NCBI RefSeq assembly: GCF_030540875.1
Contig: NZ_JAUOEM010000003.1
Coordinates: 496,001-560,000 of the forward strand
DNA: 64,000 bases
Direction of reading: 5' to 3'
Source: Flavivirga amylovorans
Lineage (GTDB): Bacteria; Bacteroidota; Bacteroidia; Flavobacteriales; Flavobacteriaceae
Shown in pieces: positions 32,865-53,980 of this stretch. The position numbers were made by a program, and so were the translations under genes. How positions within the stretch are numbered: the stretch's first letter is position 1; the number at the start of each line of letters is the position of its first letter. The notes beneath the pieces were generated by a model. That model was not told the origin of the DNA and did no database searches. It saw only the letters and a list, made by a program, of their open reading frames with translations.

Positions 32865-34352
32865 ATGAACTTAACTTTAGAAATTCAATCGTCTATTATT
32901 ACTAATTATAAAAACAATGCTTTTTACATTAGTAATACGTATTATACATATGAAGATTTAGCTCAAACTATATCTAATATAAGGCATGCTATAAAGAAAA
33001 ATACTAAGAAGACAGAATGTTTTGTTGGATTAATAACCAATGATGACATTTATACTTACGCTTCAATAATTGCATTATGGATGGAGGGTAAAGCTTATGT
33101 TCCATTAAACCCAGACTTTCCAGAAGACAGGAATTTGGCAGTAATTAAGCAAGCAGATATTGTTACAGTTCTTGATTCTTCATCTAAGAAAGTTTTCAAC
33201 AATTTAAATTCGATAATGACTGAAAATCTTAATGATTCAGATATCGATTTAAACCCTACTGAAATATCTAATGAAGATTTCGCCTATATATTCTTTACTT
33301 CCGGAACAACAGGAACCCCAAAAGGGGTACCAATAACCTTTGGAAATCTCTCAGGTTTTATGGAAGCTCAATGGGCTTTAGATTATATAATTACAGAAAA
33401 TGACAGATGTTTACAAATGTTCGAGTTAACATTTGATTTATCTGTTGTTTCATATCTTGCTCCTATACTTAAAGGTGCCTGTATTTATACTATTCCTAAA
33501 GAAGAAATTAAGTATAGCTATATTTTTGAATTAATGGAAGACCATGAATTAACGTATTCATTAATGGTTCCTTCTATATTACATTATTTAAGACCTTATT
33601 TTGACGAAATTAATTGCCCATCAATGAAATTTAGTTTATTCTGTGGGGAAGCTTTACCTTTAGACGTTACAGAAGAATGGAGTAAATGTATTCCAAATGC
33701 GACAATTGCTAATGTTTATGGCCCTACAGAGTGTACAATTTATTGTATGGATTATACCTATAAAAGGAATGATGAAAATAAAACACATAATGGGGTTTTA
33801 ACAATTGGCAAAGACATGATAAATACATCAACTATTATAGTAGATGATGATGATAATGAAGTTGAAACTGGAAAAGAAGGAGAATTGTGCTTAAGTGGTA
33901 TACAATTAACACCTGGCTATTGGAGAAACGAAGAAAAAAACAAACAAGTATTTTTTAATAAACATTATAAAGGAAAAGAAACAAGGTTTTATAGAACAGG
34001 TGATTTATGTTATGCTGATAAAGATGGTGATGTTTTATATTTAGGAAGAGTTGATTTTCAGGCCAAAATTCAAGGTTTTAGAGTTGAATTATCCGAAATA
34101 GAGTTTCATGTAAAAGCTTCCTTAAATAAGATAAATACTGTAGCAGTAGCCTTCACTAATGATATTCAAAATACTGAAATAGGTTTAGTGATAGAATCAG
34201 AACCAATTGACACTAAAGAATTAATACAAAAATTAAATGAGAAACTACCTAAATATATGATTCCAACTCAAATTAAATTTATTAGTAGTTTTCCATTAAA
34301 TTCTAACGGAAAAACAGATAGAAATAAACTAACAAAACTTTTTACTGAATAA
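32865..34352 (+). CDS. Stand-alone adenylation enzyme (DltA-like amino-acid/acyl-activating), copy 1
   Basis: AMP-forming ligase that should activate an amino or other carboxylic acid and load it on the carrier protein encoded next. The 495-aa protein is a single A domain without condensation or thioesterase domains. ANL-family motifs in order: FTSGTTGTPKGVP (144-156, P-loop), YGPTE (285-289), YRTGDL (376-381), GFRVELSEIE (404-413) and the C-terminal catalytic Lys483 in NGKTDR. The arrangement A domain, carrier, MBOAT and SGNH protein matches dltA-dltC-dltB-dltD of teichoic-acid D-alanylation. Substrate is not decidable. A paralogue is at 52480. Confidence 0.9.
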   Translation: MNLTLEIQSSIITNYKNNAFYISNTYYTYEDLAQTISNIRHAIKKNTKKTECFVGLITNDDIYTYASIIALWMEGKAYVPLNPDFPEDRNLAVIKQADIVTVLDSSSKKVFNNLNSIMTENLNDSDIDLNPTEISNEDFAYIFFTSGTTGTPKGVPITFGNLSGFMEAQWALDYIITENDRCLQMFELTFDLSVVSYLAPILKGACIYTIPKEEIKYSYIFELMEDHELTYSLMVPSILHYLRPYFDEINCPSMKFSLFCGEALPLDVTEEWSKCIPNATIANVYGPTECTIYCMDYTYKRNDENKTHNGVLTIGKDMINTSTIIVDDDDNEVETGKEGELCLSGIQLTPGYWRNEEKNKQVFFNKHYKGKETRFYRTGDLCYADKDGDVLYLGRVDFQAKIQGFRVELSEIEFHVKASLNKINTVAVAFTNDIQNTEIGLVIESEPIDTKELIQKLNEKLPKYMIPTQIKFISSFPLNSNGKTDRNKLTKLFTE

Positions 34353-34363
34353 ATAATAATACC

Positions 34364-34603
34364 ATGGAAACCTTAACTATAAAAGAGACTATAAGTGGCG
34401 TTTTAGAGTCTACTTTAGAACATACTAATTTTGAAATGCATGACGAACTAACAGCTAAAGATGTTGATGGATGGGATTCGTTATCGCACATGATAATAAT
34501 AACAAAAATAGAAAAAGCTTTCAATATTAAATTTAAATTAAGGGATTTAAACAAGCTGAAAAACATGGGATCTTTAGTCTCTGTAATTCAAAGTAAAATC
34601 TAA
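34364..34603 (+). CDS. Acyl/peptidyl carrier protein (DltC-like), copy 1
   Basis: Carrier protein of 79 aa holding the activated acyl group as a thioester on 4-prime-phosphopantetheine. The attachment serine is Ser39 in DGWDSLSH (35-42), within the usual four-helix acidic fold. It starts 11 bp after the adenylation gene and ends 14 bp before the MBOAT gene. It is clearly paralogous to the carrier at 53981; both share the stretch IEKAF followed by IKFKL after the serine helix. Confidence 0.92.
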   Translation: METLTIKETISGVLESTLEHTNFEMHDELTAKDVDGWDSLSHMIIITKIEKAFNIKFKLRDLNKLKNMGSLVSVIQSKI

Positions 34604-34617
34604 ATCACTCATTCGTT

Positions 34618-36066
34618 TTGGTATTTAATTCTATAAAGTTCGTAGTTTTTGTTCTACCCGTACTTTTTCTCTATTGGAGTTTTTTCAAAAAAAGTAAGGT
34701 CGCTCAAAATGTATTATTACTAGCCTCTAGTCTTTTTTTTTATGCCTGGGCAGATTGGCGATTCTTATTTTTACTAATTGCAAGCATCATAATAAACTAT
34801 TACTTGGCATTAAAAATAAGGAAAGAAGTTGATGATGAAGCTAAGCAACGACGATTTTTATATATAGGCTTGGTGTTTAATGTTGGGCTTTTACTGTATT
34901 TTAAGTATTTCAACTTTTTCTATGAAAGCTTTGTGGAGTTAATAAATGTTTTTGGAATAACTTCAAGTTATACGACGCTTTCTATTTTGCTTCCTTTAGG
35001 CATTAGTTTTTTTACTTTTCAAACATTAGGATATTTAATTGATGTTTACAACGAAGAAATAGATCCAAGTCATAATTTCTTAGAATTTTCTCTTTTTGTT
35101 GCTTATTTCCCAAAAATCCTTTCCGGGCCTATTGAAAGAGCGACCAAGATGATGCCTCAAATCCAAGAAAAAAGAGCGTTTTCTTATGAGTTATTTGTTG
35201 ATGGACTTAGACAGATTTTATGGGGTTTATTTGCTAAAATTGTTATTGCGGAGAATTGTGCTACAATAGCTAATCCAATTTTTAATAATTATGAAGATCA
35301 ATCTGGAAGCACACTCATTCTAGGGGCTTTTTTCTATGCGATACAACTATATGCAGATTTTTCTGGGTATTCAAATATGGCGATTGGCTTATCAAAATTA
35401 TTTGGAATTCAGTTAATGCGTAACTTCGCAACTCCTTTCTTTTCAACTAATATTAGTGATTTTTGGAGAAAATGGCATATATCATTAACCACATGGATGA
35501 TGGATTATGTTTTTACGCCGCTTTCGTTTAGCTTAAGAAGTTATCAGAAAAACGGGTTAATTATTTCAATTATTGCAACTTTTGTCTTGGTAGGATTTTG
35601 GCATGGTGCAAATTGGACTTTTGTTTTTTATGGATTACTGCATGGTATTTATTTTATCCCATTAGTCTATTCCGGCAAAATGAATACTTCAGAAATTGTT
35701 GCAAAAGGAAAATTTTTTCCTTCAATTATTGAATTTATTAAAATGTTGTTATTATTCATTTTAATCATGGCAACCGATATCTTTTTCAGAGCTAACAGTA
35801 TTAAAGAAGCCATAAATTACATTATTTCTATTTTTTCTGACGATATTTTTTCAATTCCTCAAGGATTATTTAACTCTAATTATTTGATAACCATATTTTT
35901 AATTTTTATATTCTTTTTTATTGAATGGAACAATCGAGAGAAAAAACATGATTTTGAAATTAACAATTATAATATTTTTTTAAGATGGAGTTCATATGTC
36001 TTTCTATTCTTGTTAATATTATTTTTTGGAAAAAGCTCAGAGACATTTATATACTTTCAATTCTAA
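34618..36066 (+). CDS. MBOAT acyltransferase (DltB/AlgI-like), first of a pair
   Basis: Inner-membrane O-acyltransferase that moves an acyl or aminoacyl group across the membrane to an extracytoplasmic glycan. The 482-aa protein has about 11 helices. Family residues are His287 in FWRKWHIS and the catalytic His329 in GFWHGANWTF; LSGPIERA (168-175) is the family loop. The frame starts at TTG (34618): MVFNS is the usual N-terminus of this family and is encoded with ATG in the homologue at 61126, so TTG is accepted. It lies directly after the carrier gene, implying use of the carrier-bound acyl group, as for DltB. Confidence 0.93.
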   Translation: MVFNSIKFVVFVLPVLFLYWSFFKKSKVAQNVLLLASSLFFYAWADWRFLFLLIASIIINYYLALKIRKEVDDEAKQRRFLYIGLVFNVGLLLYFKYFNFFYESFVELINVFGITSSYTTLSILLPLGISFFTFQTLGYLIDVYNEEIDPSHNFLEFSLFVAYFPKILSGPIERATKMMPQIQEKRAFSYELFVDGLRQILWGLFAKIVIAENCATIANPIFNNYEDQSGSTLILGAFFYAIQLYADFSGYSNMAIGLSKLFGIQLMRNFATPFFSTNISDFWRKWHISLTTWMMDYVFTPLSFSLRSYQKNGLIISIIATFVLVGFWHGANWTFVFYGLLHGIYFIPLVYSGKMNTSEIVAKGKFFPSIIEFIKMLLLFILIMATDIFFRANSIKEAINYIISIFSDDIFSIPQGLFNSNYLITIFLIFIFFFIEWNNREKKHDFEINNYNIFLRWSSYVFLFLLILFFGKSSETFIYFQF

Positions 36067-36072
36067 ATAATT

Positions 36073-36990
36073 ATGAAACTACTTATAATTAAACTAAGCA
36101 TTTTTTTTGTTGTCTGCTTTGGAATAATCACTGTGATTTTGATGAATTATGGAGGTAATGTTGATTATTTTTATCAAAAATTTACCACTCCGAAAGTTAA
36201 ATCAATAATAATTGGGGATTCAAGGAGTTTTCAGGGAATACAACCTAGTGTAATTAATCAATATTTTCATAATAAAAACCAATATGATCTTCCTGTATTA
36301 AATTATAGTTTTACTGGAGCACAAGCTATTTCTGGCCCTTTATACACTGAAAGCATTCTTAAAAAAATAGATAAAACAGCAACTAATGGACTATTTATAA
36401 TATCTATAACACCAGACTTTTTAACTTCAAAGGATGGATTTAGAAATGATTTAGGTGAATTTAGAGAATCAAATCAACCACCTCATAACATGAACCATGT
36501 GGATGTCAATCCAAATTATGAATATTTATTAAAAAACATGTCTTATTTCCATTTCAAGGCTTTATTTAGAAAGAACTCTGAAACACATAAAGATGGATGG
36601 TTAGAGGAATCTAATCTGCCAACAGACACTTTAGTTTTTGATACATGGAGAAAACATCAAATAGATTTATTTCTTGATGAAAGAGAGATGTACAAAATAT
36701 CAGATTTTAGAGTTAACAGTTTCAATACCCTCATTAAAGAGTTAAAAAAGTTTGGCAAAGTTTATTTAATAAGAATGCCTATTAGTAAAGAATTTTTAAA
36801 TCTTGAAAACTCTTATTACCCTGAATTAAATGCTATCGTTGATTCTATAGCAAAAATCAATGAAACACCTTTTTTTGATTTTAATAATTCTGGAGAACTT
36901 CAATATAAAACATATGACGGACATCATATAGACAAACATGGGGGTAAGGAGTTTACAAAAGCACTTTGTGATTCAATAACTCAGAAGTAA
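36073..36990 (+). CDS. Membrane-anchored SGNH-like protein (DltD/AlgX-type partner), copy 1
   Basis: A 305-aa protein with one N-terminal membrane helix (about 4-24) and an extracytoplasmic SGNH/GDSL-like domain. The nucleophile motif IIGDSRS puts Ser50 at the block-I position, and the C-terminal TYDGHHID gives Asp282 and His284/285. Such proteins work with MBOAT enzymes as second-step transferases or esterases (DltD, AlgX/AlgJ, PatB). It lies 7 bp after one MBOAT gene and 8 bp before another. The order MBOAT-SGNH-MBOAT-SGNH shows that the pair has been duplicated. Confidence 0.82.
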   Translation: MKLLIIKLSIFFVVCFGIITVILMNYGGNVDYFYQKFTTPKVKSIIIGDSRSFQGIQPSVINQYFHNKNQYDLPVLNYSFTGAQAISGPLYTESILKKIDKTATNGLFIISITPDFLTSKDGFRNDLGEFRESNQPPHNMNHVDVNPNYEYLLKNMSYFHFKALFRKNSETHKDGWLEESNLPTDTLVFDTWRKHQIDLFLDEREMYKISDFRVNSFNTLIKELKKFGKVYLIRMPISKEFLNLENSYYPELNAIVDSIAKINETPFFDFNNSGELQYKTYDGHHIDKHGGKEFTKALCDSITQK

Positions 36991-36997: not shown

Positions 36998-38446
36998 ATG
37001 TTATTTAATTCTTTTGAATTTCTTCTTTTCTTTCCAATTATGATTATTGGGTTTTATCTACTAAACCATAAATATAGATGGCTATGGCTTTTACTAGGTA
37101 GCTATTATTTTTATATGGCACATGAACCAGAATTGATACTATTATTAATAATATCTACTCTGGTAGATTATTATTGTGGTATAAAGATGTACGAGGCAAA
37201 AAGTAAATCAATAAAAAGACATTATTTGCTTCTAAGTATTATAACTAATGCTGGTATTCTGTTTGCTTTCAAGTATTTACTTTTCTTTACTACGAATATT
37301 CAATGGGTTTTTGATTTTTTTGGTGCAGAAGTATTAAATGATCAAGATGTAAATTCTTATAATTTCAACAATATTCTGCTCCCTATAGGTATTAGCTTTT
37401 ATACTTTTCAAACTATGAGTTATTCTATAGAAATTTATAGAGGTCTAATTATACCTGAACGACATGTTGGTAAATTTGCTTTATACGTGTCTTTTTTTCC
37501 TCAACTTGTGGCTGGACCTGTAGAACGAGCCTCTAGACTATTACCTCAATTAAAATCAGATGTCAAAATTAATATCAACAATATCAAACAGGGTATAATA
37601 ATGATGGCTTGGGGCTTCTTTTTAAAACTTGTGGTAGCAGATAGATTGGGGGTTTATGTAGATGAAGCTTTTAGAAACCCAGACTCACACCATAGTTTAT
37701 CATTAGTTTTAGGGAGTATTTTCTTTTGTTTTCAAATATATTATGATTTTTCAGCTTATACGTCCATAGCAATAGGGGCTGCTAAAACAATGGGGTATGA
37801 TTTAATTCAAAATTTTAATCAACCTATTTTTGCAACCTCTGTCGCAGAATTCTGGAAGCGTTGGCATATTTCTTTTACACAATGGATAAGAGATTTCATA
37901 TACAAACCATTGGTGAAAAAAAATAGAACACCTAGACTCCTAGCAGTTTTTATTGTATTTTTTATTAATGGTTTATGGCATGGTGCTAACTGGACATTTG
38001 TTGTTTGGAGCTTATTGAACGCTTTAATATTAATTATTGAAATTTCTACAAAATCGATTCGCTATTCAATTTTTGATTTGTTACATCTACCAAAAAGAGC
38101 TAGAGAATTAATAGGATGGGGTACAGGTATAAGTTTAATTATTACAACACTAGTTTTCTTCAGATCTCCAAACATATCGCATGCAATGGTTTACGTAAAA
38201 AGCATGTTTACCTTTAATAATAGCTTTCATATTAATATCTTAGATAACTATTTTGAATTATTCTTAAGTGTTATTTTAATTTTTGTAGTACAAGCTATAT
38301 ATTATTATAAAGGTAATAGTAAAGTCTATGAGTTATTTACTGAGCGTACAAAATGGACGAAATATAGTATGAGTTTAGCTTATATATTAATTATTGTTTT
38401 ATTCGCTATTAATAGACAAAATTCTTTTATATATTTTCAATTTTAA
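36998..38446 (+). CDS. MBOAT acyltransferase, second of the pair
   Basis: Second inner-membrane O-acyltransferase, 482 aa, with the full family set: LLPIGISFYTFQTMSY (128-142), VAGPVERA (171-178), His290 in FWKRWHIS and catalytic His328 in GLWHGANWTF. It differs throughout from the first MBOAT and starts MLFNSFEF, so it is an old duplicate that may use another acyl donor or acceptor position. It is followed after 4 bp by its own SGNH-like partner. Confidence 0.93.
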   Translation: MLFNSFEFLLFFPIMIIGFYLLNHKYRWLWLLLGSYYFYMAHEPELILLLIISTLVDYYCGIKMYEAKSKSIKRHYLLLSIITNAGILFAFKYLLFFTTNIQWVFDFFGAEVLNDQDVNSYNFNNILLPIGISFYTFQTMSYSIEIYRGLIIPERHVGKFALYVSFFPQLVAGPVERASRLLPQLKSDVKININNIKQGIIMMAWGFFLKLVVADRLGVYVDEAFRNPDSHHSLSLVLGSIFFCFQIYYDFSAYTSIAIGAAKTMGYDLIQNFNQPIFATSVAEFWKRWHISFTQWIRDFIYKPLVKKNRTPRLLAVFIVFFINGLWHGANWTFVVWSLLNALILIIEISTKSIRYSIFDLLHLPKRARELIGWGTGISLIITTLVFFRSPNISHAMVYVKSMFTFNNSFHINILDNYFELFLSVILIFVVQAIYYYKGNSKVYELFTERTKWTKYSMSLAYILIIVLFAINRQNSFIYFQF

Positions 38447-38449: not shown

Positions 38450-39388
38450 ATGTTAAAAAGCTTCGTAATAAAATTATTCATAATAGCAATAACATTTATT
38501 ACTATTTATATATTCTTTATAGATAAACTTTCTAAAGGTTTTGTCGATACAAATTATAATAAATTCACCCAAGAAGCGAGCGGCTTAATTATTGGGCTGT
38601 CTAGAGCAAATGAAGGTATATCTCCCTCTATTATAGAAGAAGAATTAAAAGAATATAACTTTTTTAATAAGCCTATAGTAAATTTTGCATTTAATGAAGC
38701 TCATTTCGGAGAGGTGTATTATGAAGCTATTAAAAAAAAGATAAAAACTGACAATGGGCTTTTTATTTTATCTATTAGCCCTGGTAATTTTACTTCACCG
38801 TTAGGTTTAGACGATAAAAAAGTTTTTGAATATGATGAAAGACTAACTCTAGGTAAAATAAATAACTTTGTGTCTTCTCCCAATTATAATTATATAATAA
38901 ATGTCTATGGAGCATCTTTATATAATAGCTTACACAATTTAGATCAATGGAATCATAGGGTTTCACATCTTGATGGTTGGAATGAAGTTAAGTTAGCAAG
39001 CAAACTAGATACAATAACAGATAAAGATATAGAATATTGGAAATCGTTAACGCTAAAATTCTATGAACAAAAGATAAAAACCGAGCAAATATCTTCTTAT
39101 CGGCACAATTATTTTATTAAAACTGTTGAGTACCTTAAAACTAAAGGAGAGGTTTTTTTAATAAGAATGCCATCAGATTCAACTATACTAAAAATTGAAA
39201 ATAGTCATTGGAAAAATTTTGATTTTGAAATGGATAGCATAGCTAAATCATTTAACATTCCTTATTTAAATTATTCCAAAAAATCAAATAATTATAAAAC
39301 ATATGATGGTTCACATTTAGAATCCGAAAGTGCTAAAGAGTTTACCGAACTTTTAAGTAAGGATATTAAAAATAATTTAGTAGAGTAA
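38450..39388 (+). CDS. SGNH-like MBOAT partner, copy 2 (Asp of GDS motif replaced)
   Basis: A 312-aa paralogue of the protein at 36073, with an N-terminal membrane helix (about 4-24) and an outside SGNH-like domain. The block-I motif reads IIGLSRAN, keeping Ser51 but replacing the usual Asp with Leu50. The C-terminal TYDGSHLE keeps Asp286 and His289, so the Ser-Asp-His triad can still form. FLIRMPSDS and LYNS regions match the first copy. It lies 4 bp after the second MBOAT gene and is the last gene before the Fem/GNAT array. Confidence 0.75.
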   Translation: MLKSFVIKLFIIAITFITIYIFFIDKLSKGFVDTNYNKFTQEASGLIIGLSRANEGISPSIIEEELKEYNFFNKPIVNFAFNEAHFGEVYYEAIKKKIKTDNGLFILSISPGNFTSPLGLDDKKVFEYDERLTLGKINNFVSSPNYNYIINVYGASLYNSLHNLDQWNHRVSHLDGWNEVKLASKLDTITDKDIEYWKSLTLKFYEQKIKTEQISSYRHNYFIKTVEYLKTKGEVFLIRMPSDSTILKIENSHWKNFDFEMDSIAKSFNIPYLNYSKKSNNYKTYDGSHLESESAKEFTELLSKDIKNNLVE

Positions 39389-39391: not shown

Positions 39392-40411
39392 ATGGGAGAA
39401 ATAACAAGTAACAATCCATATTTATTAGACACATTTAGGTCAGTCTGGTTAAATCACTTTGGTGATGGTGAACAACCTATGGCTTTTAGTTTTGTAAACT
39501 CCCTCACTTTTATAAAGCATAAAAAGTTACCTATATATCATAACACAGGAATGACCAACACAAAAGGTATTAATTATAAGCTATCCAACAGCATTTCTAA
39601 TGATTTTAAAGGTAAAGTTTTTATAATTTGTGATGTGCAAGGATTTATTAATGAAAATAATTTAGAAGACACCAATTTAGGATGTTATAGAGTCAAACAA
39701 TACCCAGGATACATATGTGATCTGAAAGACTATAATTCGCTACAAGACTACATGTTGGGTGTTATTAGTAAAAAAAGTCGTTACAAATTTAATAGCTATA
39801 AGAGAAAACTAGAATCATCGTATAAGATACATTACAGAATGTACATAGATAATATTACACCTGAATTATACGAAAACCTTTTTTCTCATTTTAAACGGCT
39901 TTTAAAAAAAAGGTTTTTTGATAAAAAAACGGTAAATAACAATTTAAACCCAGATGAATGGGCTTTCTATAAGGAAGTTACTTTACCAATGATTTTAAAT
40001 AAGGAAGCAGGGCTTTTTGTTGTGTATGATGACGATAAGCCAATAGCTATTACTTTGTTAAACTTTTCAAAAAACAAAATGGTTGATGTTATGAGGGTTT
40101 TCGATATTGATTATTCAAAATTTAGGCTTGGTACTGTAAGTATCATGAAACAATTAGAATGGTGCATTAAAAATAATTTTGAAGCATTGGATTTTTCTAA
40201 AGGTTACTATGAATACAAAAAAAGATGGGCCAATAAGCCATACTGGTTTGAGCATCATATATATTATGATAAAAGTTCTCTTATTGCAAAAATACTAGCT
40301 ACTTTGCATAAACTTTTTTTTGCTTTTAAATTATTTCTGAGAAAAAAACATATTACAAACTACATACATGAACTGAATTTTTTTCTAAATAAAAAGAAAT
40401 ATGCAGAATAG
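39392..40411 (+). CDS. Fem/GNAT-like acyltransferase, tandem paralogue 1 of 6
   Basis: Cytoplasmic protein of 339 aa with two GNAT-like halves, of the Acetyltransf_6 / FemAB-like type. Landmarks shared by the array are the basic stretch SKKSRYKFNSYKRKLE (126-141), RFFDKK (174-179), LFVVYDDDKPIAITL (208-222), FDIDYSKFRLG (237-247) and FSKGYYEYKKRW (268-279). It begins 3 bp after the SGNH gene, so the array is cotranscribed with the Dlt-like cassette. Fem-like enzymes transfer amino acids or acyl groups to amines. It lacks the C-terminal module of paralogues 3-6. Acceptor and donor unknown. Confidence 0.8.
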   Translation: MGEITSNNPYLLDTFRSVWLNHFGDGEQPMAFSFVNSLTFIKHKKLPIYHNTGMTNTKGINYKLSNSISNDFKGKVFIICDVQGFINENNLEDTNLGCYRVKQYPGYICDLKDYNSLQDYMLGVISKKSRYKFNSYKRKLESSYKIHYRMYIDNITPELYENLFSHFKRLLKKRFFDKKTVNNNLNPDEWAFYKEVTLPMILNKEAGLFVVYDDDKPIAITLLNFSKNKMVDVMRVFDIDYSKFRLGTVSIMKQLEWCIKNNFEALDFSKGYYEYKKRWANKPYWFEHHIYYDKSSLIAKILATLHKLFFAFKLFLRKKHITNYIHELNFFLNKKKYAE

Positions 40412-40486
40412 ATGTTAGTCAATAATTTATGATACTAATAAATTATGAAGTAAATTCAACTTTAAAACAAAGACATAAATTTTTAG

Positions 40487-41443
40487 ATGTTTTACAAACT
40501 TTTTTCTTTTCAAGATAGTAGATTCATTTTTGATTTATTTTTAGAAAATAAAATAAGTTCATTTTACCTCCCTGTTGTTTCAAATAATTTTACTAACAAA
40601 TATATTGAAACAGGAAGTTTTGAAAGCAAAAACAGCTCTAAAAACATACACATAGTTAAAGATGTTCCTAGCTACTTAAATTTTTCATTGCAAAAATTAA
40701 ATTCTAATATTAAATTTAGAAAAGTACAGCAATACAAAGGATATTTAGTAAATATAAACGGTTTTAAAGACGTTACCACCTTTATAAATGATAACTTAAA
40801 TAAACGAAATAGGAAAAATTTAATCTCTAAAAAGAATAAACTTTATAAAAACCACAAAATCTCATCTAAGTTCTTTTTTGGCGAGATTAGTAAAGATAAC
40901 TACCAAAGCCTTTTTAAGGCTTTTTATAGGTTATTAAAAGTCCGCTTTAATGAAAAAAGAACATACAATCGCTATTTGTCAAATTGGGATACTATACAAG
41001 AAGTTACTTATCAGAAAATCTTAGAAAAGGAAGCATCATTACATGTCATTTTTGATAATCACAATCCAATTGGTATAACATTAAACTTTCATAAAGGAGA
41101 CATCGTTTTTAGCCATATACAAACCTACGATATAAACTACTCCAAATACAATATGGGTGACATAAGTATGCTGCACCATATAGAATGGTTAATAACTAAT
41201 AAAATAGCTGTATTTGACCTATCTATGGGGAAAACATATTATAAAGAAAAGTGGTGTAATCATGAATACAATTTTATATATCATATTTTTTATAAAAAAA
41301 ACACCATTCTGTCTAGGGTAAAAATGCAGATAATTGTACAAGAATTAAAGCTTTTACAATTTTTAAGAGATAAGAATATTATAGGAAAATTATTTATGTT
41401 TGATAAATTACTTTATACCTATAAAAACAGGCTAGTAAAATAA
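40487..41443 (+). CDS. Fem/GNAT-like acyltransferase, tandem paralogue 2 of 6
   Basis: 318 aa, the shortest of the array. The N-terminal half has IHIVKDVPSYLNF (54-66) and the basic stretch NKRNRKNLISKKNKLY (105-120). The second half has FFGEISKDNY (130-139), RFNEKR (153-158), YDINYSKYNMG (214-224; Asn where most copies have the second Asp) and LSMGKTYYKEKW (245-256). Like paralogue 1 it has no C-terminal module. The divergence from its neighbours throughout argues for different substrates rather than a recent copy-number increase. Confidence 0.8.
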   Translation: MFYKLFSFQDSRFIFDLFLENKISSFYLPVVSNNFTNKYIETGSFESKNSSKNIHIVKDVPSYLNFSLQKLNSNIKFRKVQQYKGYLVNINGFKDVTTFINDNLNKRNRKNLISKKNKLYKNHKISSKFFFGEISKDNYQSLFKAFYRLLKVRFNEKRTYNRYLSNWDTIQEVTYQKILEKEASLHVIFDNHNPIGITLNFHKGDIVFSHIQTYDINYSKYNMGDISMLHHIEWLITNKIAVFDLSMGKTYYKEKWCNHEYNFIYHIFYKKNTILSRVKMQIIVQELKLLQFLRDKNIIGKLFMFDKLLYTYKNRLVK

Positions 41444-41450
41444 AAGCGTT

Positions 41451-42641
41451 ATGCTGAAAAAAATTACATCAAAAAATTTGGATGTTTTAAGCGCTTTTCT
41501 TGAAAGAAAAAAAGCGTTGCCTATTTATAACGAAATTATAAATAGCATTACTGGCAATACTATTTACAAAAAGATAAATTCATCAAACAAAAGCAACGAC
41601 TACATATATTGTATTTACGATTTTCCAAGTTACTTAAAAGGTCAGATGTCGAATAATGAATGGAAATCAAAAATAATAAACACCTACAAAGGCTCGCTCA
41701 TTCTTTTAAAAAATTACAATAATGCAGACGCATATTTAAAGAATAAATTTAGTACAGGTAGACGTTCAAAATTTAGAACCTATCAAAAGCGTTTAGAAAC
41801 TTGCTTTAACATTGAATATAAAAGCTATTTTGGAGAAATTTCTAAAGATGACTATGAGTATCTTTTTAAAGAATTCCATAAAATGATTCAAAATCGATTT
41901 CTAGAAAAAAAGATTCAGAATTATGATTTATCAAGATGGAACATATATCATGAAATAGCCTACCCTTTAATTAATAGTAAAGAAGCCGCTTTATTTGTTA
42001 TTTTTAGCAATGGAAAACCTATAAGTATATGCCTAAATCTAGTAAGAGATAAAACTATATATGGTTACATAAGAACATACGATATTGATTATTCTAAATT
42101 CTATATAGGATTTACAGACTTTATTAAGCAATTACACTGGTGTTATGAAAATGATATCGAAATTTTCGATTTATTAAAAGGAAATTATACGTATAAAGCA
42201 AGATTGATTGATAGCCAATATGATTTTCAAAAACATGTGGTATATAATTCCAATTCATTACTAACATCAATCTCGGCAAATATTATAATTGCCAGAACTC
42301 GAGCATTTTATTTTTTAGTAAAGATTTTAAAAAAAATAAATATCAATGTAGTATATCACAGATTCTTAAAATATAAGTACAGAAATAGGGAACTGAGTAA
42401 AATTGAAAATACATCTAAAAAAATTATCATTAATAATAATGTCAAGATCGAGTCAGATGATCAATTACTTGAGGTTAACTTAAATGATGAGGCCCTGTCT
42501 TTTTTAAAAAGACCTGTATATGATTTTTTATATTCCAATCAAGAATCATTGCGGAATGTAGAAGTATTTAATTTGCAAAATGAATTAAACACATACGTTA
42601 TAAAAGGAACGGTTAAGATGCAAAAAATAACATTTAAATAG
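41451..42641 (+). CDS. Fem/GNAT-like acyltransferase, tandem paralogue 3 of 6
   Basis: 396 aa. Array motifs: GRRSKFRTYQKRLE (103-116), YFGEISKDDY (126-135), RFLEKK (149-154), YDIDYSKFYIG (210-220) and LLKGNYTYKARL (241-252), where the tryptophan of the usual YKxRW motif is replaced by leucine. It is the first copy with the extra C-terminal module, ending with FLKRPVYDFLYSNQES and a beta-rich tail (about 345-396). It starts 7 bp after paralogue 2. Confidence 0.8.
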   Translation: MLKKITSKNLDVLSAFLERKKALPIYNEIINSITGNTIYKKINSSNKSNDYIYCIYDFPSYLKGQMSNNEWKSKIINTYKGSLILLKNYNNADAYLKNKFSTGRRSKFRTYQKRLETCFNIEYKSYFGEISKDDYEYLFKEFHKMIQNRFLEKKIQNYDLSRWNIYHEIAYPLINSKEAALFVIFSNGKPISICLNLVRDKTIYGYIRTYDIDYSKFYIGFTDFIKQLHWCYENDIEIFDLLKGNYTYKARLIDSQYDFQKHVVYNSNSLLTSISANIIIARTRAFYFLVKILKKININVVYHRFLKYKYRNRELSKIENTSKKIIINNNVKIESDDQLLEVNLNDEALSFLKRPVYDFLYSNQESLRNVEVFNLQNELNTYVIKGTVKMQKITFK

Positions 42642-42657
42642 TTTTGGTGAACACTCT

Positions 42658-43839
42658 ATGACTAAAATTAAAACTATAACATTTTTGAAAGCATTTTTAG
42701 GCGAAAATAGCTTACCCCCTATTTATAGTAAAGTTACTGACGGGAATGGAGTTGATTACAATATAAATGTTAAATCCAATTTTGGACTAAAAGATCAAGT
42801 TCTTATAGTTAAGGATATCCCAGATTATTTGAATATTCATATAAACAAGCAACTAACTAATTTTGTTGTTAACAGAATAACAACCTTAAAAGGGCACTTT
42901 ATTGAGCTCCATTCTTTTAAAAATATAGCAGATTATTTAAAAAGTAATTTTGGCACAAAAAGTAGGTCTAATTTAAGACGTTATCAAAATAGATTAGAAA
43001 CCTGCTTCAACATAAAATATATTGTGTATTATGGTAGCATTGAAAAACAAGAATATAATAGGTTATTTATTACCCTGAAAGACTTGTTAATAAGACGATT
43101 CAAAGAAAAAAAAGAAGCTAATTATGAGCTACAACACCTTGAAGAATTTCAGGATGTTGTTTATGATTTAATCCTAAATAAAAAAGCTAATTTATTTGTT
43201 ATTTACGATGGTAATAAACCTATAAGTATTAGAATAAATATGCATAAAAAAGCACTTTCATTTTATATACTTAGTGGTTTTGATATAGATTACTCTAAAT
43301 TTCATTTAGGTACGTTAGACATGCTAAAAAACATAGAGTGGTGTATAGATAACGATTTTGAAATATACGATCTTTTAAAAGGCTATGATTATTACAAGAA
43401 AAAATGGGCTACTAAAACACATTATTATTACAATCATATTATCTATAATTCTAATTCAATAAATCTTTCTTTAATCGGTAAAAGCAGAACTATTAAAGAG
43501 AATATTAAATACAAATGCTATAATGTGTTTAAAAAGTACTATTTAGACACAAAATACAAAGAGTTTAAAAAGTCTATTTATAGAGTTAAAAATACTTTTA
43601 CTAAAAAAGAAAAATTATTTAAAATATCTGATTTTGATTCAAAAATCTCTAATGAATTAATCAAAATTGATATTGAAAAAGATGGAGCATATGCCTTTCT
43701 AAGAAAACCGGTATATGATTTTCTGTTTATAAACAATGAATCTACAAATAATGTTACAGTTAGCAAGTTTGTAGAAGCCCCTAATCGTTTTCAAATAAAA
43801 TCAAAAACAAAATATAAATTGTTAGAAGTGATTAACTAG
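42658..43839 (+). CDS. Fem/GNAT-like acyltransferase, tandem paralogue 4 of 6
   Basis: 393 aa, with VKDIPDYLNI (51-60), TKSRSNLRRYQNRLE (100-114), RRFKEKK (146-152), FDIDYSKFHLG (208-218) and LLKGYDYYKKKW (239-250) intact. Its C-terminal module FLRKPVYDFLFINNES resembles that of paralogue 3 most closely, suggesting the two are sister genes. No signal peptide or membrane helix is present, so it works in the cytoplasm, where nucleotide sugars and carrier-bound acyl groups would be available. Confidence 0.8.
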   Translation: MTKIKTITFLKAFLGENSLPPIYSKVTDGNGVDYNINVKSNFGLKDQVLIVKDIPDYLNIHINKQLTNFVVNRITTLKGHFIELHSFKNIADYLKSNFGTKSRSNLRRYQNRLETCFNIKYIVYYGSIEKQEYNRLFITLKDLLIRRFKEKKEANYELQHLEEFQDVVYDLILNKKANLFVIYDGNKPISIRINMHKKALSFYILSGFDIDYSKFHLGTLDMLKNIEWCIDNDFEIYDLLKGYDYYKKKWATKTHYYYNHIIYNSNSINLSLIGKSRTIKENIKYKCYNVFKKYYLDTKYKEFKKSIYRVKNTFTKKEKLFKISDFDSKISNELIKIDIEKDGAYAFLRKPVYDFLFINNESTNNVTVSKFVEAPNRFQIKSKTKYKLLEVIN

Positions 43840-43885
43840 AAACTTTAATCATGTAACATCAACACATTTATATACAGTCATTTAA

Positions 43886-45094
43886 ATGAAATTAAATAAT
43901 AAAAATATAGAATTTAGTTTTTTTTTAGACCTTTTCTTTAAAGAAAAGAGCTTCCCTCCTTTTTATAAAAAAATAACGAATACCTTTTCAAAAAAAGTCG
44001 TTTACGAAATACATAATGATACTACATTAGAATTAAATAGTAGTACCTATTCTATCAGTGATGTTCCAAGTTATTTTTTATCTGAATTTACAGAAACAGT
44101 CCATAATTTTAAATTACTCACTACCCCGCTCTATTCGGGGTATTTAATTAACCTTTCTAAATTTAGAGACCTGGAAGACTATCTAGATAATAAATTAGGA
44201 AAGCCAAGAAAATCACAACTAAAAAGATATAGAAAGCGCTTAGATAAATGCCTTTCGCCAGAATATAAAATCTTTCACGGAGATATTTCTAAAGAAACAT
44301 ACCATACACTTTTTAATGAACTGAGAACACTAACAGAAAGACGTTTTGCTCAAAAAGAAGAGTTAAACTTTGAATTGCCTTATCTGGAGCTATATCGAGA
44401 CATGATGTATCCTCTAATAATAAATAAAAAAGCCAGTATATTTGTTATTTACAGTGAAGCAAAACCAATTAATATAACACTAAATTTTATAGATGATGAT
44501 TCTATTTTCCATTGGAATAGTTGTTATGATGTAGATTACCAGATGTTTAATTTAGGCCATATAAACATGGTAAACCATTTAGAATGGGCTTTTAAAAATA
44601 ATTTTAAATTATTTGATATGGGCAGAGGTGATTTTTTACATAAAAGAAAATACATCAATGAAAGTTATATGTATGAAGAACATATTATTTATAAACCAAA
44701 ATCAATATCGGGGTCATTCTTTGCATACTCAAAGCTGTTAAAGTTAAAAGCACGATACATATTAATTCAATTTCTAAAAAAAACTAATATACATTTACGG
44801 TATCGCAACTATGTAAAGTATAAGTATAGAATTGTTAACTCTAAGAATAGTCCTCTTATAAACTTTAAAATTAATATTGACGAAACTAGTTCTGAAACCC
44901 TTAATATAAAGCCACTTACTTTACTTTGCTTAAGTAACAAGGAGTATAACTACCTAATAAAACCTCTAAATTATTTTCTCCATAAAACCCAAGAACATAT
45001 TAAAGACGTTAGTGTTTATAAAGATTTAAACAAAGAACAGACCTTTTATTTTAAAGGAATTAAAAAATATCAAAAAATAATCATTACAAATTAG
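43886..45094 (+). CDS. Fem/GNAT-like acyltransferase, tandem paralogue 5 of 6
   Basis: 402 aa, the longest of the array. It has ISDVPSYF (57-64), GKPRKSQLKRYRKRLD (105-120), FHGDISKETY (130-139), RRFAQKE (152-158), YDVDYQMFNLG (214-224, the most altered form of the DIDYSKF motif) and MGRGDFLHKRKY (245-256). The C-terminal module reads LIKPLNYFLHKTQEH. The changes cluster in the second GNAT half, where the acceptor or donor is expected to bind, so its specificity probably differs from paralogues 3 and 4. Confidence 0.8.
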   Translation: MKLNNKNIEFSFFLDLFFKEKSFPPFYKKITNTFSKKVVYEIHNDTTLELNSSTYSISDVPSYFLSEFTETVHNFKLLTTPLYSGYLINLSKFRDLEDYLDNKLGKPRKSQLKRYRKRLDKCLSPEYKIFHGDISKETYHTLFNELRTLTERRFAQKEELNFELPYLELYRDMMYPLIINKKASIFVIYSEAKPINITLNFIDDDSIFHWNSCYDVDYQMFNLGHINMVNHLEWAFKNNFKLFDMGRGDFLHKRKYINESYMYEEHIIYKPKSISGSFFAYSKLLKLKARYILIQFLKKTNIHLRYRNYVKYKYRIVNSKNSPLINFKINIDETSSETLNIKPLTLLCLSNKEYNYLIKPLNYFLHKTQEHIKDVSVYKDLNKEQTFYFKGIKKYQKIIITN

Positions 45095-45118
45095 CTTGTA
45101 GCCTTAAGTTTATATTGA

Positions 45119-46282
45119 ATGAGTATCAAAAACAAAATAGAAGCCTTCCCTGTTTTATTTAAAAGTAATGAAGTGAAACAGATGTATTCTAGTATAGAAT
45201 ATTTTGATTTAAAAGTTGCAAATAATGTACCTCATGGAGACTTCAAATCAACCCTAAAAGATGCTTACTCTCACAGGTTAATACCTGAATATTTTACGTT
45301 AAACTTGAGAGATTCTTCTCTTAAAAGCAAAGTAATACCTCAATATAATTGGGGATATTCGATTTTATTACATACTTCAGATTCTATTGAAGGGTATATG
45401 AATCGCCAATTTAATTCAAAAAAGAGAAATATCTTTACTAGATATGTAAAACGCTTAGAATCCTGTTTTAACATAAGTTATAAAATGTTTCATGGTGATA
45501 TTTCCAAGATTGATTACGATTCTATAATGGAATCGCTTCGCCATATGATTACTCGTAGGTTTGAAGAAAGAAACGAATTGCATAAAAACTTACATGAATG
45601 GGATTATTTAGTAGAACATACTTATGCAGAAATCATTAATAATAAGGCCTCTTTATTTGTGATATATAACGAGGAAGAACCTATTGAAATATCTTTGAAT
45701 TATCATTTTGATAAAATACTTTTCAGCTATATATCGTCTTATAATATAGATTACTCAAAATTTGGTTTAGGTCATGTGGAAATCTACAAACAAGTTGAAT
45801 GGTGTGCAAACAATGATTATATCCTTTTTGAAATGGGGGTTGGCGGAATGGACTATAAAAGAAGATGGAGTAACAATATTTATAGATACAACCACTATGT
45901 TACTTATAAAAACTTAAGTATTAAATCTAAATACAAGGCAAAATTACTTATAACGAAAATCAAGATTAAAGAATATCTTAAATCTAAAGGAGTAAACGAA
46001 ATTCACTCAAAATATAATAAATACTTTACAAAGAAATCAAACTTACAAAGTAATATTACACTATCTGAAATTAAAGTAACCCATGATTTAAATGTTACTA
46101 ATTTTGAAGAAATACAGCAGCATACAATTAACACATATAGTTTTTTAAAAAAGCATATTTATAATTTTTTGTACACTACAAAAGGACATCTTAATGATGT
46201 GAAAATATACAAACACAATAAAGAGAATTCATTTTTAATCAAAGGCGAAAAAAGTTATCAAAAAGTGATATGTAACACTTAG
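45119..46282 (+). CDS. Fem/GNAT-like acyltransferase, tandem paralogue 6 of 6
   Basis: 387 aa. It has SKKRNIFTRYVKRLE (100-114), MFHGDISKIDY (123-133), RRFEERN (146-152), YNIDYSKFGLG (208-218) and MGVGGMDYKRRW (239-250), and the C-terminal module FLKKHIYNFLYTTKG. The N-terminal 50 residues do not match the other copies well. It closes the array; a 150-bp gap with a promoter-like box separates it from the next gene. Confidence 0.8.
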   Translation: MSIKNKIEAFPVLFKSNEVKQMYSSIEYFDLKVANNVPHGDFKSTLKDAYSHRLIPEYFTLNLRDSSLKSKVIPQYNWGYSILLHTSDSIEGYMNRQFNSKKRNIFTRYVKRLESCFNISYKMFHGDISKIDYDSIMESLRHMITRRFEERNELHKNLHEWDYLVEHTYAEIINNKASLFVIYNEEEPIEISLNYHFDKILFSYISSYNIDYSKFGLGHVEIYKQVEWCANNDYILFEMGVGGMDYKRRWSNNIYRYNHYVTYKNLSIKSKYKAKLLITKIKIKEYLKSKGVNEIHSKYNKYFTKKSNLQSNITLSEIKVTHDLNVTNFEEIQQHTINTYSFLKKHIYNFLYTTKGHLNDVKIYKHNKENSFLIKGEKSYQKVICNT

Positions 46283-46432: not shown

Positions 46433-47590
46433 ATGAAGAATAAAATTATTAGAGTTACTACAGTTCCTTTATCGTTAAGCGGTTTATTACAGGGGCAATT
46501 AAAGTTTATGTCTAACTATTTTGACATTTTAGCTGTGTCGTCAAAAGGAAAAGACAATGCGTTAGCAAGAGTTTCGGAGTATGAAAACGTTCCAACCGTC
46601 GCGGTTGAAATGACAAGAAAAATAACACCTTTTAAAGATCTTCATGCCGTATGGCAATTATATAAATTATTTAAAAAAGAAAAACCTTTTATAGTACATT
46701 CTCATACGCCAAAAGCAGGTACGTTATCTATGCTTGCAGCAAAACTGGCAAGGGTACCGCATAGATTACACACTATAGCAGGTCTACCTTTAGTTGAAGC
46801 CACAGGCTTTAAACGATTCATCCTTAATCTGGTTGAAAAAATAACTTATAAATGTGCTACCAAAATATACCCAAATTCTTATGGATTAGTAGATATTATT
46901 ATAGAGCATAATTTTACAAATAAAGAAAAACTTAAAGTTATAGCAAACGGGAGCTCTAATGGCATCGACACCTCCTATTTTGATCCAACAATCTTTAATG
47001 ATGAAGTTAAAAAACTTGAGCTTAAGGCAAGCTTACATATATCTGAAGATGATTTTGTATTTGTATATACAGGCAGATTAGTTACAGATAAAGGTATAAA
47101 CGAATTAATGGTCGCTTTTGATAAAATAAGCAAAGAACACAAAAAGATAAAACTACTACTGGTAGGAACCTATGAAAATGAATTAGATCCGCTTTTACCA
47201 AAATCAATGAACATCATAGAAAATAATAAAAATGTCGCTTGTACCGGATGGGTAGATGATGTAAGGCCTTATTTTGCAATATCAAATGCCTTAATCTTTC
47301 CTAGTTACCGTGAAGGCTTTCCTAATGTAGTTATGCAATCTGGGGCTATGGAATTACCAAGTGTTGTTACAAACATTAATGGTTGCAATGAAATAATTGA
47401 ACATAAAAAACATGGGTTCATTATTCCTGTAAAAGATGACAAAGCAATCTATGATTCTATGAACTATATATTATCACATCAAGAGGAAGTTGCAAAAATG
47501 GGATTACAATCTAGAGCAAATATAGTTTCAAAATTTGAACGAAAAAGAGTTTGGGAAGCTTTACTTTCTGAATATCAAAATTTAGAATAA
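46433..47590 (+). CDS. Family 4 glycosyltransferase (PglA-like)
   Basis: GT-B glycosyltransferase of 385 aa. HSHTPKAGTLSMLAAKLARV (89-108) and HTIAGLPL are typical of the PglA-like group that often adds the second sugar after a PglC-type initiating transferase. FVYTGRLVTDKGINELM, LLLVGTYENE and FPSYREGFPNVVMQSGAM form the donor domain; in the last, the usual second Glu of the E-x7-E motif is replaced (S-G-A-M). A PglC-like transferase gene lies 2.5 kb downstream, which supports this role. Confidence 0.9.
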   Translation: MKNKIIRVTTVPLSLSGLLQGQLKFMSNYFDILAVSSKGKDNALARVSEYENVPTVAVEMTRKITPFKDLHAVWQLYKLFKKEKPFIVHSHTPKAGTLSMLAAKLARVPHRLHTIAGLPLVEATGFKRFILNLVEKITYKCATKIYPNSYGLVDIIIEHNFTNKEKLKVIANGSSNGIDTSYFDPTIFNDEVKKLELKASLHISEDDFVFVYTGRLVTDKGINELMVAFDKISKEHKKIKLLLVGTYENELDPLLPKSMNIIENNKNVACTGWVDDVRPYFAISNALIFPSYREGFPNVVMQSGAMELPSVVTNINGCNEIIEHKKHGFIIPVKDDKAIYDSMNYILSHQEEVAKMGLQSRANIVSKFERKRVWEALLSEYQNLE

Positions 47591-47628: not shown

Positions 47629-48672
47629 ATGGCTTCGAAACTTAAACTCCTAGGGGTCTTTTTTAAAGATAAAAACAAAAAAGGATGGTTAAGAATATTT
47701 AAAGAGTTACTACATTTTGCATGGATAAAAAAAGAAATCCCTATTGACTATATTAGAAAATTTTTATATAGAAAAGAAATTACAGATTATAAAAATTATT
47801 TAAGTCTAAAGGAATATGTTAGTATTATTGAATCACCAAAAATGCTCATTCCAGAAATTGCCTCTATTACAGATAATAAATTAAGTTTTTCGCTTTATTG
47901 CAGAGAAAACAAGTTGCCTAGCCCTAAACTTATAAGCTATAACTTAAGAAATACTTTTTTTTCAAACGATACAATTGTTTTAATAAATACGAAATCAGAA
48001 CTTCATTCTTTTTTCAAAAACGTTTTATTTAAAAGTCATAAAAAGAAATTATTTTTAAAACCCTTAGACAGTTCCGGAGGTAAGGGCTGTATCCTCTTAG
48101 AGGAGGTAAACTTGAAAAACCAAATAGAAGAATTTAGTGAAGCTTTATTAAAAAATAGTTATGTCCATCAAGAAATTGTAATTCAACACCCAGTTATAAG
48201 TAAGATATATTCAAGTTCTGTAAATACATTAAGAATTGACACGTATATAGATCAACAACAAAATATCTATGTATTATCGGCACTCATGCGCTTCGGAATT
48301 GGAGGCAGTTTTATAGACAATGCTAGTTCTGGAGGCCTTTACGTTTCTGTGAATATAGATACAGGAGAGCTTAAAGGAAAAGGTTGGCAAGACATTGCTA
48401 AAGGAGGGCATGAATTTGCTGAGCACCCAGACTCTAAAACTATTTTAAATGGATATGCAATACCTTTTGTGACAGAATCTTGTGATTTGGTAAAAATAGC
48501 ATGTAAAAGCTTGCCAAATAGAATTGTTGGCTGGGATGTTGCTATTACTGTAGATGGGCCAATAATTATTGAATGTAATTACGGACCATCCTTACATATG
48601 ACAGATGTTGCTTATGGGGGGTATTGTAAGCATGAAAAAATTCAAGAAATTTTAAAAGAAATTAAAAACTAA
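47629..48672 (+). CDS. Sugar-transfer-associated ATP-grasp ligase
   Basis: A 347-aa ATP-grasp enzyme of the sugar-transfer-associated subfamily found in polysaccharide loci. ATP-binding motifs are FLKPLDSSGGKG (about 143-154), IVIQHPVISKIY, VNTLRIDTY and the metal/ATP site IIIECNYGPSLHM near the C-terminus. ATP-grasp enzymes join a carboxylate, through an acylphosphate, to an amine or thiol. Here that could mean attaching an amino acid to a sugar acid such as the HexNAcA made in the first operon. That role is inference; the fold assignment is good. It is followed 2 bp later by the CapK-like gene. Confidence 0.85.
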   Translation: MASKLKLLGVFFKDKNKKGWLRIFKELLHFAWIKKEIPIDYIRKFLYRKEITDYKNYLSLKEYVSIIESPKMLIPEIASITDNKLSFSLYCRENKLPSPKLISYNLRNTFFSNDTIVLINTKSELHSFFKNVLFKSHKKKLFLKPLDSSGGKGCILLEEVNLKNQIEEFSEALLKNSYVHQEIVIQHPVISKIYSSSVNTLRIDTYIDQQQNIYVLSALMRFGIGGSFIDNASSGGLYVSVNIDTGELKGKGWQDIAKGGHEFAEHPDSKTILNGYAIPFVTESCDLVKIACKSLPNRIVGWDVAITVDGPIIIECNYGPSLHMTDVAYGGYCKHEKIQEILKEIKN

Positions 48673-48673
48673 A

Positions 48674-49987
48674 ATGAAATTAGTATTATCAATACTTGAG
48701 CATGTAAGATTTGTATTATTCTGGCATTTAGACGTACTAAATGGAGCAAAAATAAGCAGACACTATAGGAACATCTCGTTTATTTTGGAAAATTTCTCAT
48801 CACCTAAATCAAAGGCTCTGAGAGAAAAAAATTTAAAGAATTTATTAAATCATGCAAATAAGCATACTGTATTCTATAAAGATTTTATAAAATTAGAAGA
48901 CTTCCCAGTAATCAATAAGAATATTTTAAGAGCTCGCATTAAAGAATTTAAATCGAGTCGTTTTATAAATAAAAAAACAAGAGTAGTATCAACAAGTGGT
49001 TCAACCGGTAGTGCATTAAAAATCAATCAAAATCAAAGTAAAGTTGCTAGAAATACTGCTGATTCTATTTACTTTGGAAAATTAGCGGGTTTTAAGGTTG
49101 GATATAAGCTTTTATATTTAAGACACTGGGACGATCTCTTAAGAAAGCCTTTATTTACAAAATTCGCACAGAATATTGAAGAGTTGGAAGTTGTTAATCT
49201 TAATGATTCATATATAGAAAGCATCATAAATAAAATTAAGAACGATAAATCCTCAAAAGGTTGGTTAGGATATGCATCTGGGTATGAACTTATATGTAAG
49301 TATCTTGATAAAACAAAATCTAAACCTGTAAACAGTTATGTGAAATCAATTGTAGCAATGTCTGAAGGTCTTAATAAATATACAAAAAGATCTATGCAGA
49401 AATATTTTAATGCAGATGTAGTTTCTAGATACTCAAATACTGAAAACGGGATAATAGCACAGCAAAAAATAAATAGTGATAGTTTCACAATAAATTGGGC
49501 AAGTTTTTATGTAGAGATCTTTAAACTAGATGAGGATGTTCCAGTGACAAATGGTGAAGCAGGAAGAATAATTATTACTGATTTACATAATTATGCGATA
49601 CCTTTAATACGCTATGATACTGGTGATGTAGGAACTATTAACCACGAGGCTACCCCTCCTTTACTAAAAAATATAGAAGGAAGAAAAGCTGATGTTATAT
49701 ATAATACAAAAGGAGACATCGTTTCCTCATTTATAGTTGCTAATGTGGTGGAATATGAAGGTGTCATCCAAGGGCAACTAATTCAAGAAACTCAAAAGGG
49801 CTATTTATTAAAACTTAATATTACTAACAAATTTAAACAAGAAGTCGATATCATTAATGAATTTAAAAGTTATTTAGGTAATGATGCAGAAATAAAAATT
49901 GTTTATGTAGATGAGATACCACTACTCTCTTCGGGAAAAAGAAAAGCTACAGTTAATAATTATTCAAATAATAACTTTAGCGATTAA
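48674..49987 (+). CDS. CapK/PaaK-like adenylate-forming enzyme
   Basis: Adenylate-forming protein of 437 aa related to phenylacetate-CoA ligase and to CapK of capsule loci. STSGSTGSALKI (106-117) is the P-loop, SRYSNTENG (about 254-262) occupies the place of the YGxTE motif, and RYDTGDVG (about 313-320) and SSGKRKATVNNY (C-terminal lysine region) are present. CapK proteins occur widely in polysaccharide clusters with uncertain substrates. Overlapping functions with the ATP-grasp gene 2 bp upstream suggest a two-enzyme acylation step. No carrier gene is adjacent. Confidence 0.85.
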   Translation: MKLVLSILEHVRFVLFWHLDVLNGAKISRHYRNISFILENFSSPKSKALREKNLKNLLNHANKHTVFYKDFIKLEDFPVINKNILRARIKEFKSSRFINKKTRVVSTSGSTGSALKINQNQSKVARNTADSIYFGKLAGFKVGYKLLYLRHWDDLLRKPLFTKFAQNIEELEVVNLNDSYIESIINKIKNDKSSKGWLGYASGYELICKYLDKTKSKPVNSYVKSIVAMSEGLNKYTKRSMQKYFNADVVSRYSNTENGIIAQQKINSDSFTINWASFYVEIFKLDEDVPVTNGEAGRIIITDLHNYAIPLIRYDTGDVGTINHEATPPLLKNIEGRKADVIYNTKGDIVSSFIVANVVEYEGVIQGQLIQETQKGYLLKLNITNKFKQEVDIINEFKSYLGNDAEIKIVYVDEIPLLSSGKRKATVNNYSNNNFSD

Positions 49988-51313: not shown

Positions 51314-51358
51314 AAATATAACAGTTTTTAGCGCAACTATTTTTAATATGATAATTTG

Positions 51359-52456: not shown

Positions 52457-52479
52457 TGATAATTGTAATGAAATATTAA

Positions 52480-53976: not shown

Positions 53977-53980
53977 GATT

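Follow-up and report, generated by a model that had tools for sequence, protein, structure and literature searches.

The window analysed here, a stretch of 64,000 nucleotides from the 4.86 Mb genome of the marine bacterium Flavivirga amylovorans (contig NZ_JAUOEM010000003.1, positions 496,001 to 560,000), contains six intact open reading frames (ORFs) that lie head to tail on the forward strand at 39392-46282 and encode the related proteins F1 to F6. These represent six old orthologous groups under purifying selection, and their true linked partners are the two genes immediately upstream, encoding a membrane-bound O-acyltransferase (MBOAT2) and an SGNH/GDSL-like protein (SGNH2). In our judgement there is about an even chance that this MBOAT-SGNH-F1..F6 cassette encodes Fem-like aminoacyltransferases that act in order on the amino groups of a lipid-linked glycan, forming part of a capsule or exopolysaccharide. 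The array is a new arrangement of a known kind of enzyme, unusual in number and order.

Six orthologous groups and their linked partners

All six proteins match Acetyltransf_6 (PF13480) above the Pfam cut-off (32.4-51.8 bits versus 22), and F1 is matched in addition by ATE_C, the arginyl-tRNA-protein transferase domain. The identity of the other members to F1 is 26-32% over the alignment, and pairwise BLAST within the set gives E values from 3e-37 to 1e-71, so that their likeness is not due to chance. As the FemAB profile PF02388 matches none of them at E <= 0.5, they are termed Fem-like here rather than members of FemABX. The isoelectric points of all six lie between 9.3 and 9.8. The initial annotation had described six adjacent paralogues with shared motifs; the genes are real and intact, but the motifs are looser than written. 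DIDYSKF is replaced by DINYSKY in F2, DVDYQMF in F5 and NIDYSKF in F6; YKxRW by YKEKW in F2, YKARL in F3, YKKKW in F4 and HKRKY in F5; and the KG of the end motif by MG in F2, RG in F5 and VG in F6. Furthermore, this end motif is not peculiar to the set, because its G-to-YK part is the final stretch of the Pfam domain match. Stops that had been flagged in F1 and F2 of the window reflect a long profile overrunning the ends of these shorter ORFs, both of which are intact. The two proteins are without the C-terminal domain present in F3-F6; most F1-type copies of other genera (approximately 410-420 amino acids) do carry it, unlike the F1 of the window.

Matches were found in 40 of 198 scanned relatives, 39 of them Flavobacteriaceae; the other, a weak and partial match from a different family of the order (G141, 31.8 bits), was excluded from the tables. 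Among 397 Flavobacteriaceae genomes there were matches in 89, with at most four candidates scored per genome, such that the copy numbers are lower bounds, and among 296 genomes drawn across the phylum there were matches in five, all Flavobacteriaceae and including the window's own. The 17 loci from the genome scan with an F3 alignment come from Flavivirga, Wocania, Flaviramulus, Cellulophaga, Flagellimonas, Aquimarina, Algibacter and other Flavobacteriaceae. A tree of 145 copies contains six clades, F1 to F6, each with a Shimodaira-Hasegawa-like approximate likelihood ratio test (SH-aLRT) support of 100 and none missing from any of the 12 array genomes in the tree; F3 is duplicated in several genomes, giving its clade 15 rows. 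These clades, with their nearly fixed order, bear out the long retention of six differing copies that had been proposed from the window alone.

Nei-Gojobori ratios of nonsynonymous to synonymous substitution (dN/dS), calculated for six genomes with five pairs per group, are 0.05-0.25 in 26 of the 30 ortholog comparisons, the remaining four being saturated and not computable. The possibility that the copies are pseudogenes, with ratios near 1, is rejected on these values, and the genes are not decaying. Twelve alignment columns are identical across all six clades, against 16 that are conserved within every clade yet differ between clades, and there is probably a division of labour among F1-F6. 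A mobile or viral origin of the array is not supported: its DNA has no plasmid match, and no F3 relative was found among viral contigs.

SGNH2 stops 3 bases short of F1, and the array genes are separated by only 7-75 bases, hence MBOAT2-SGNH2-F1..F6 looks like a single operon. Comparison between genomes shows a tight link. In a typing of 300 copies from 92 genomes, MBOAT2 and SGNH2 stand directly upstream in 19 of the 20 arrays holding both F3 and F4, the twentieth being on a 3.8 kb contig that ends there, and are upstream of none of the other arrays in the same set. The same run of eight genes is present in Cellulophaga sp. 20_2_10 (L098), Flagellimonas sp. 389 (L099) and F. aequoris (L104), where it sits among neighbours differing from those of the Flavivirga-type loci, with F3 doubled in L098 and L104. 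SGNH2 itself has no Pfam match, and a fold search with its model (predicted local distance difference test score, pLDDT, 83.9) returned nothing at E <= 0.001, with weak matches to PatB (E 2.7e-3) and DltD (E 2.9e-2); residues G49, S51, D286 and H289 are invariant in 16 aligned rows, two of which are SGNH1, a similar protein of the window.

Order of types within the arrays

The level of variation in gene order was studied in 318 typed copies from 103 genomes, loci L088-L097, L102 and L103 being omitted from the typing trees as duplicates of genomes already included. An F type was defined as the largest FastTree clade in which only a single reference group is represented, and copies shorter than 290 amino acids or scoring below 80 bits were left untyped. 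The labels are unstable at the edges and the F6-type group is broad; one copy from L104 is of F3 type in the 300-copy tree and of F1 type in the 318-copy tree. The phylogenetic check on order and number that had been proposed in the initial annotation shows a nearly fixed order, with 34 of 40 arrays of two or more types being fully in F1 to F6 order (the others being G071, G200, G217, G224, G238 and G467), and copy number ranges from one to eight per genome within the stretches read. In mixed arrays with an F1-type copy, that copy comes first in 36 of 38 cases. Overall there are 10 discordant against 381 ordered pairs, whereas 2000 within-array shuffles gave a mean of 196 discordant pairs and a minimum of 151, a comparison that provides no probability, given the relatedness of the genomes and the weak support of the F1-type group. 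The F1 type is present in 95 of the 103 genomes, and in other genera it is the sole copy more often than any other type; the 35 single-copy genomes comprise 31 with an F1-type and four with an F6-type copy (G007, G061, G268 and G309).

Fold, donor and competing explanations

F3 was the only one of the six proteins to be folded. Its AlphaFold model (pLDDT 92.4, predicted template modelling score 0.89) has as its best match in the PDB the Weissella FemX with peptidyl-RNA (4ii9, E 4.9e-8, probability 1.00). Among the best 50 of the 61 matches at E <= 0.001, 39 are aminoacyl-tRNA-dependent enzymes (FemX, FemA, Sbb17/Sba18, L-/A-PGS/MprF and ATE1), many of these being chains of one same protein; the other 11 are 2hqy (2), 3frm (3), VipF (4), PamZ and N-myristoyltransferase. 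This confident model predicts F3 to be a Fem-type double-GNAT protein, as the initial annotation had supposed, and most of its closest matches among solved structures depend on aminoacyl-tRNA, instead of being the simple O-acetyltransferases that would have argued otherwise. The canonical coenzyme A (CoA) loop, [QR]xxGx[GA], is absent from all six proteins, which is not decisive for this family. Residue K249 of F3 is the same in all 80 rows, and chained BLAST via a fusion protein of the same locus, described below, brings it near the Lys of the FK motif in the FemX-like protein encoded downstream.

From these observations we infer a donor, acceptor, product and step-by-step chain. F1 would add the first aminoacyl group, at the inner face of the membrane, either to the amino group of a lipid-linked sugar such as a 4-amino sugar or to a residue placed by a FemX-like protein; the donor for all six enzymes is probably aminoacyl-tRNA. 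Because Fem transfer should leave a new free amino group each time, an ordered enzyme set could grow a chain, with F2-F6 then working one after another, each having a donor or acceptor of its own; the outcome would be a short peptide or several aminoacyl groups. MBOAT2-SGNH2 would O-acylate the decorated polymer once it has been exported.

Precedents exist for parts of this scheme. FemX, FemA, FemB, MurM and MurN, which transfer amino acids from tRNA to the bridges of peptidoglycan, have the double-GNAT fold in common with the array, as judged from the best match of the F3 model, and femAB and murMN are neighbouring paralogues with different steps, the gene order of which follows the reaction order. 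The array differs from them in having sequences that match no solved Fem protein directly, in lying within a polysaccharide locus, in its six genes in a row and in the extra C-terminal domain of F3-F6. HfsK, too, is a double GNAT of FemX-like type with a link to a surface polysaccharide: according to PMC5362036, its authors have indirect evidence that it modifies the Caulobacter holdfast polysaccharide, with donor and acceptor likewise not established there, and it differs from the array in being the product of a single gene and in binding c-di-GMP. Orf11 of the BD-12 pathway is a Fem-like enzyme that uses Gly-tRNA to attach Gly to an amino-sugar intermediate (PMC12945691). Sbb17 and Sba18, of the streptothricin class, are among the fold matches of F3; like Orf11, they differ from the array in serving small-molecule antibiotics and not a polymer. 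We know of no ordered six-gene arrays of streptothricin-class Fem-like enzymes. No paper on arrays like F1-F6 was found by title or the start of the abstract in the open literature, most subscription papers being outside this scope, and Myxococcus papers, including PMC7484181, gave no lead for the array.

Several observations weigh against ordered aminoacyl transfer by F1-F6. Matches to the F3 model also include an N-myristoyltransferase and the tandem GNATs PamZ and VipF, the latter solved with acetyl-CoA, and the TM-scores between F3 and FemX are modest, at 0.38-0.44. A PDB sequence search with the array finds no solved relative (one with the FemX-like protein of the locus gave no lead either), and profile comparison of the F family with this FemX-like family gives a probability of 0.1%. 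Equating K249 with FemX Lys305, which is described in a review (PMC12945691), depends on the chained BLAST alignment, the register of which is uncertain by two residues. There is no tRNA gene within the window. Of the eight genomes among 103 without an F1 type, three (G026, G061 and G393) have short or cut contigs or are assemblies 84-88% complete, but a broken assembly is no easy excuse for the other five (G007, G268, G301, G306 and G309), which are 94-99% complete and carry only F6-type copies. The large F1-type group is itself weakly supported (51 in the 300-copy tree and 11 in the 318-copy tree), the counts of arrays and genomes are not independent because the genomes are related, and gene order could reflect descent by tandem duplication instead of reaction order.

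Alternatively, the six proteins might be parallel N-acyltransferases, each placing acetyl or another acyl group from CoA or an acyl-carrier on an amino sugar of its own within the repeat unit, with no chain being formed. Such an arrangement, which we regard as rather unlikely, would agree with the acetyltransferase name of the Pfam family, the matches to VipF and PamZ, the two PglD-type proteins through which the locus makes amino sugars, the many N-acyl groups on marine O-polysaccharides (PMC3210612) and the F6-type copies found without F1. However, the top fold matches of F3 are aminoacyl-tRNA enzymes, no canonical CoA loop is seen in F1-F6, and the cassette stays the same across genera with differing neighbours, as would be expected more readily of a constant product than of six sugars that differ. 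A product in the form of a uronic-acid amide, as in a Vibrio alginolyticus polysaccharide (PMC4663550), is rejected, since the amino acid there is bound via its amine, opposite to the direction expected of Fem chemistry. F1-F6 might even assemble, without a template and in gene order, an oligopeptide of about six residues from aminoacyl-tRNAs on the lipid-linked sugar, with MBOAT2-SGNH2 acylating the peptide or the sugar. Shorter arrays would then make shorter chains, mostly begun by F1; the further genomes that hold F6-type copies without F1 slightly lower the probability of this proposal, which we also regard as rather unlikely.

The donor might alternatively be free of tRNA, with an adenylation enzyme and carrier loading amino acids for the six Fem-like enzymes, as the initial annotation had implied in treating these genes as partners of the array. 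They do neighbour it in the window, both adenylation domains (A-domains) match amino-acid adenylation models, and relatives of the adenylation enzyme AMPx1 at E <= 1e-40 are found in 12 of 15 array genomes, all 12 of Flavivirga type and with the A-domain on the same contig as the array. Nevertheless, no A-domain at this threshold is found in the three genomes that have the full array at L098, L099 and L104, for which no completeness figure is given. AMPx1 and its carrier ACP1 belong with their own MBOAT1 and SGNH1 in a four-gene set adjoining the array in only 3 of the 12 array genomes mapped (G000, G001 and G011), and the second pair, AMPx2-ACP2, goes with GNAT1. On these absences and separate gene maps the coupling is rejected, and a carrier-fed array appears very improbable. 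Least probable of all is that the paralogues are redundant, one activity being kept for dosage or through drift with no division of labour. The single family common to all six, the columns identical throughout and the duplication of F3 could be cited in its favour, but it is difficult to reconcile with six fully supported clades each retained in every array genome of the tree, with low dN/dS in each group and with clade-specific fixed residues.

Amino-acid decorations are known on bacterial polysaccharides and, to our knowledge, several have no assigned transferase. A nearly collinear Fem-like family of variable length constitutes a natural experiment, in which marine bacteria can be compared for array length and for the amino acids that their polymers carry. 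If ordered chain growth by F1-F6 is correct, the logic of FemX-A-B would extend from peptidoglycan to exopolysaccharide.

The surrounding polysaccharide locus

The window encodes sugar phosphate transferases, glycosyltransferases, amino-sugar enzymes and wzx- and wzy-like proteins, most of them named by eye; the two PglD-type proteins, a glycosyltransferase, a pyruvyltransferase and a cupin/JmjC protein are confirmed by Pfam. This gene content indicates an exopolysaccharide or capsule locus, in agreement with the glycan context originally proposed for the array. A comparison with Rfam gave no match.

Table 1. Features of the window and related copies in other loci (aa, amino acids)
Feature	Position	Strand	Assignment
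MBOAT2	36998-38446	+	Membrane-bound O-acyltransferase, PF03062 E 3.2e-26; first gene of cassette
SGNH2	38450-39388	+	SGNH/GDSL-like partner of MBOAT2; N-terminal helix, likely membrane anchor
F1	39392-40411	+	339 aa; PF13480 E 1.3e-13, ATE_C E 6.4e-07; Fem-like double-GNAT transferase
F2	40487-41443	+	318 aa, short form; PF13480 E 7.2e-09; Fem-like double-GNAT transferase
F3	41451-42641	+	396 aa; PF13480 E 1.7e-10; Fem-like double-GNAT transferase; extra C-terminal domain of about 70 aa (modelled)
F4	42658-43839	+	393 aa; PF13480 E 2.1e-11; Fem-like double-GNAT transferase
F5	43886-45094	+	402 aa; PF13480 E 5e-10; Fem-like double-GNAT transferase
F6	45119-46282	+	387 aa; PF13480 E 1.2e-07; Fem-like double-GNAT transferase; last gene of array
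AMPx1-ACP1-MBOAT1-SGNH1	32865-36990	+	Dlt-like set (adenylation enzyme, carrier, MBOAT, SGNH); AA-adenyl-dom E 1.6e-93, PP-binding, MBOAT; outside cassette
AMPx1-ACP1	32865-34603	+	A-domain/carrier pair of this set
Family 4 glycosyltransferase	46433-47590	+	PF00534 E 2.8e-30; directly after array
GNAT1-AMPx2-ACP2	51356-54229	+	GNAT, second adenylation enzyme and carrier; separate conserved trio
FAD fusion	56239-58902	+	FAD/NAD-binding protein (PF13454 E 3.2e-09) fused to FemAB/Acetyltransf_6 domain (PF13480 E 1.2e-07)
FemX-like protein (FemAB)	59104-60156	+	PF02388 E 3.9e-09, over cut-off
Further F6-like copy	L040:9569-10714		Directly after FAD fusion
Further F6-like copy	L042:8024-9169		Directly after FAD fusion
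Further F6-like copy	L048:6506-7651		Directly after FAD fusion
Further F6-like copy	L049:9058-10200		Directly after FAD fusion
Further F6-like copy	L074:6641-7780		Directly after FAD fusion
Beta-helix protein	30385-32388	-	PF13229
ATP-grasp and PaaK-like genes	47629-49987		ATP-grasp of sugar-transfer type, then adenylating enzyme
Cupin_8/JmjC protein	62849-63691		2-oxoglutarate-hydroxylase type; edge of locus

The family 4 glycosyltransferase follows F6 in loci of the Flavivirga, Wocania and Flaviramulus type, and not in L098, L099 or L104. Two further Fem-related proteins are encoded downstream. The FAD fusion is similar to F5 by BLAST (E 5e-07), its match to PF02388 (E 7.9e-4) being under the cut-off, and has relatives near Fem-like copies in 23 genomes; the additional F6-like copy that directly follows it in five relatives is missing from the window. 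The FemX-like gene is often found immediately before an F1-type gene in other genera.

The Dlt-like set, which is likely to esterify a glycan with aminoacyl groups, contains the same four gene types as the Dlt system (DltA-DltC-DltB-DltD), SGNH1 being assigned by its likeness to SGNH2; unlike in Dlt, its adenylation enzyme falls below the DltA equivalog cut-off, and the set is separate from the F array. The GNAT1-AMPx2-ACP2 trio stays together in L040, L042, L043, L048 and L049. In Flavivirga-type loci the beta-helix protein is found upstream of the cassette. A relative of the Cupin_8/JmjC protein occurs close to Fem-like copies in 20 genomes; the protein could serve to hydroxylate an aminoacyl group, and the ATP-grasp and PaaK-like enzymes are a possible peptide- or amide-forming pair.

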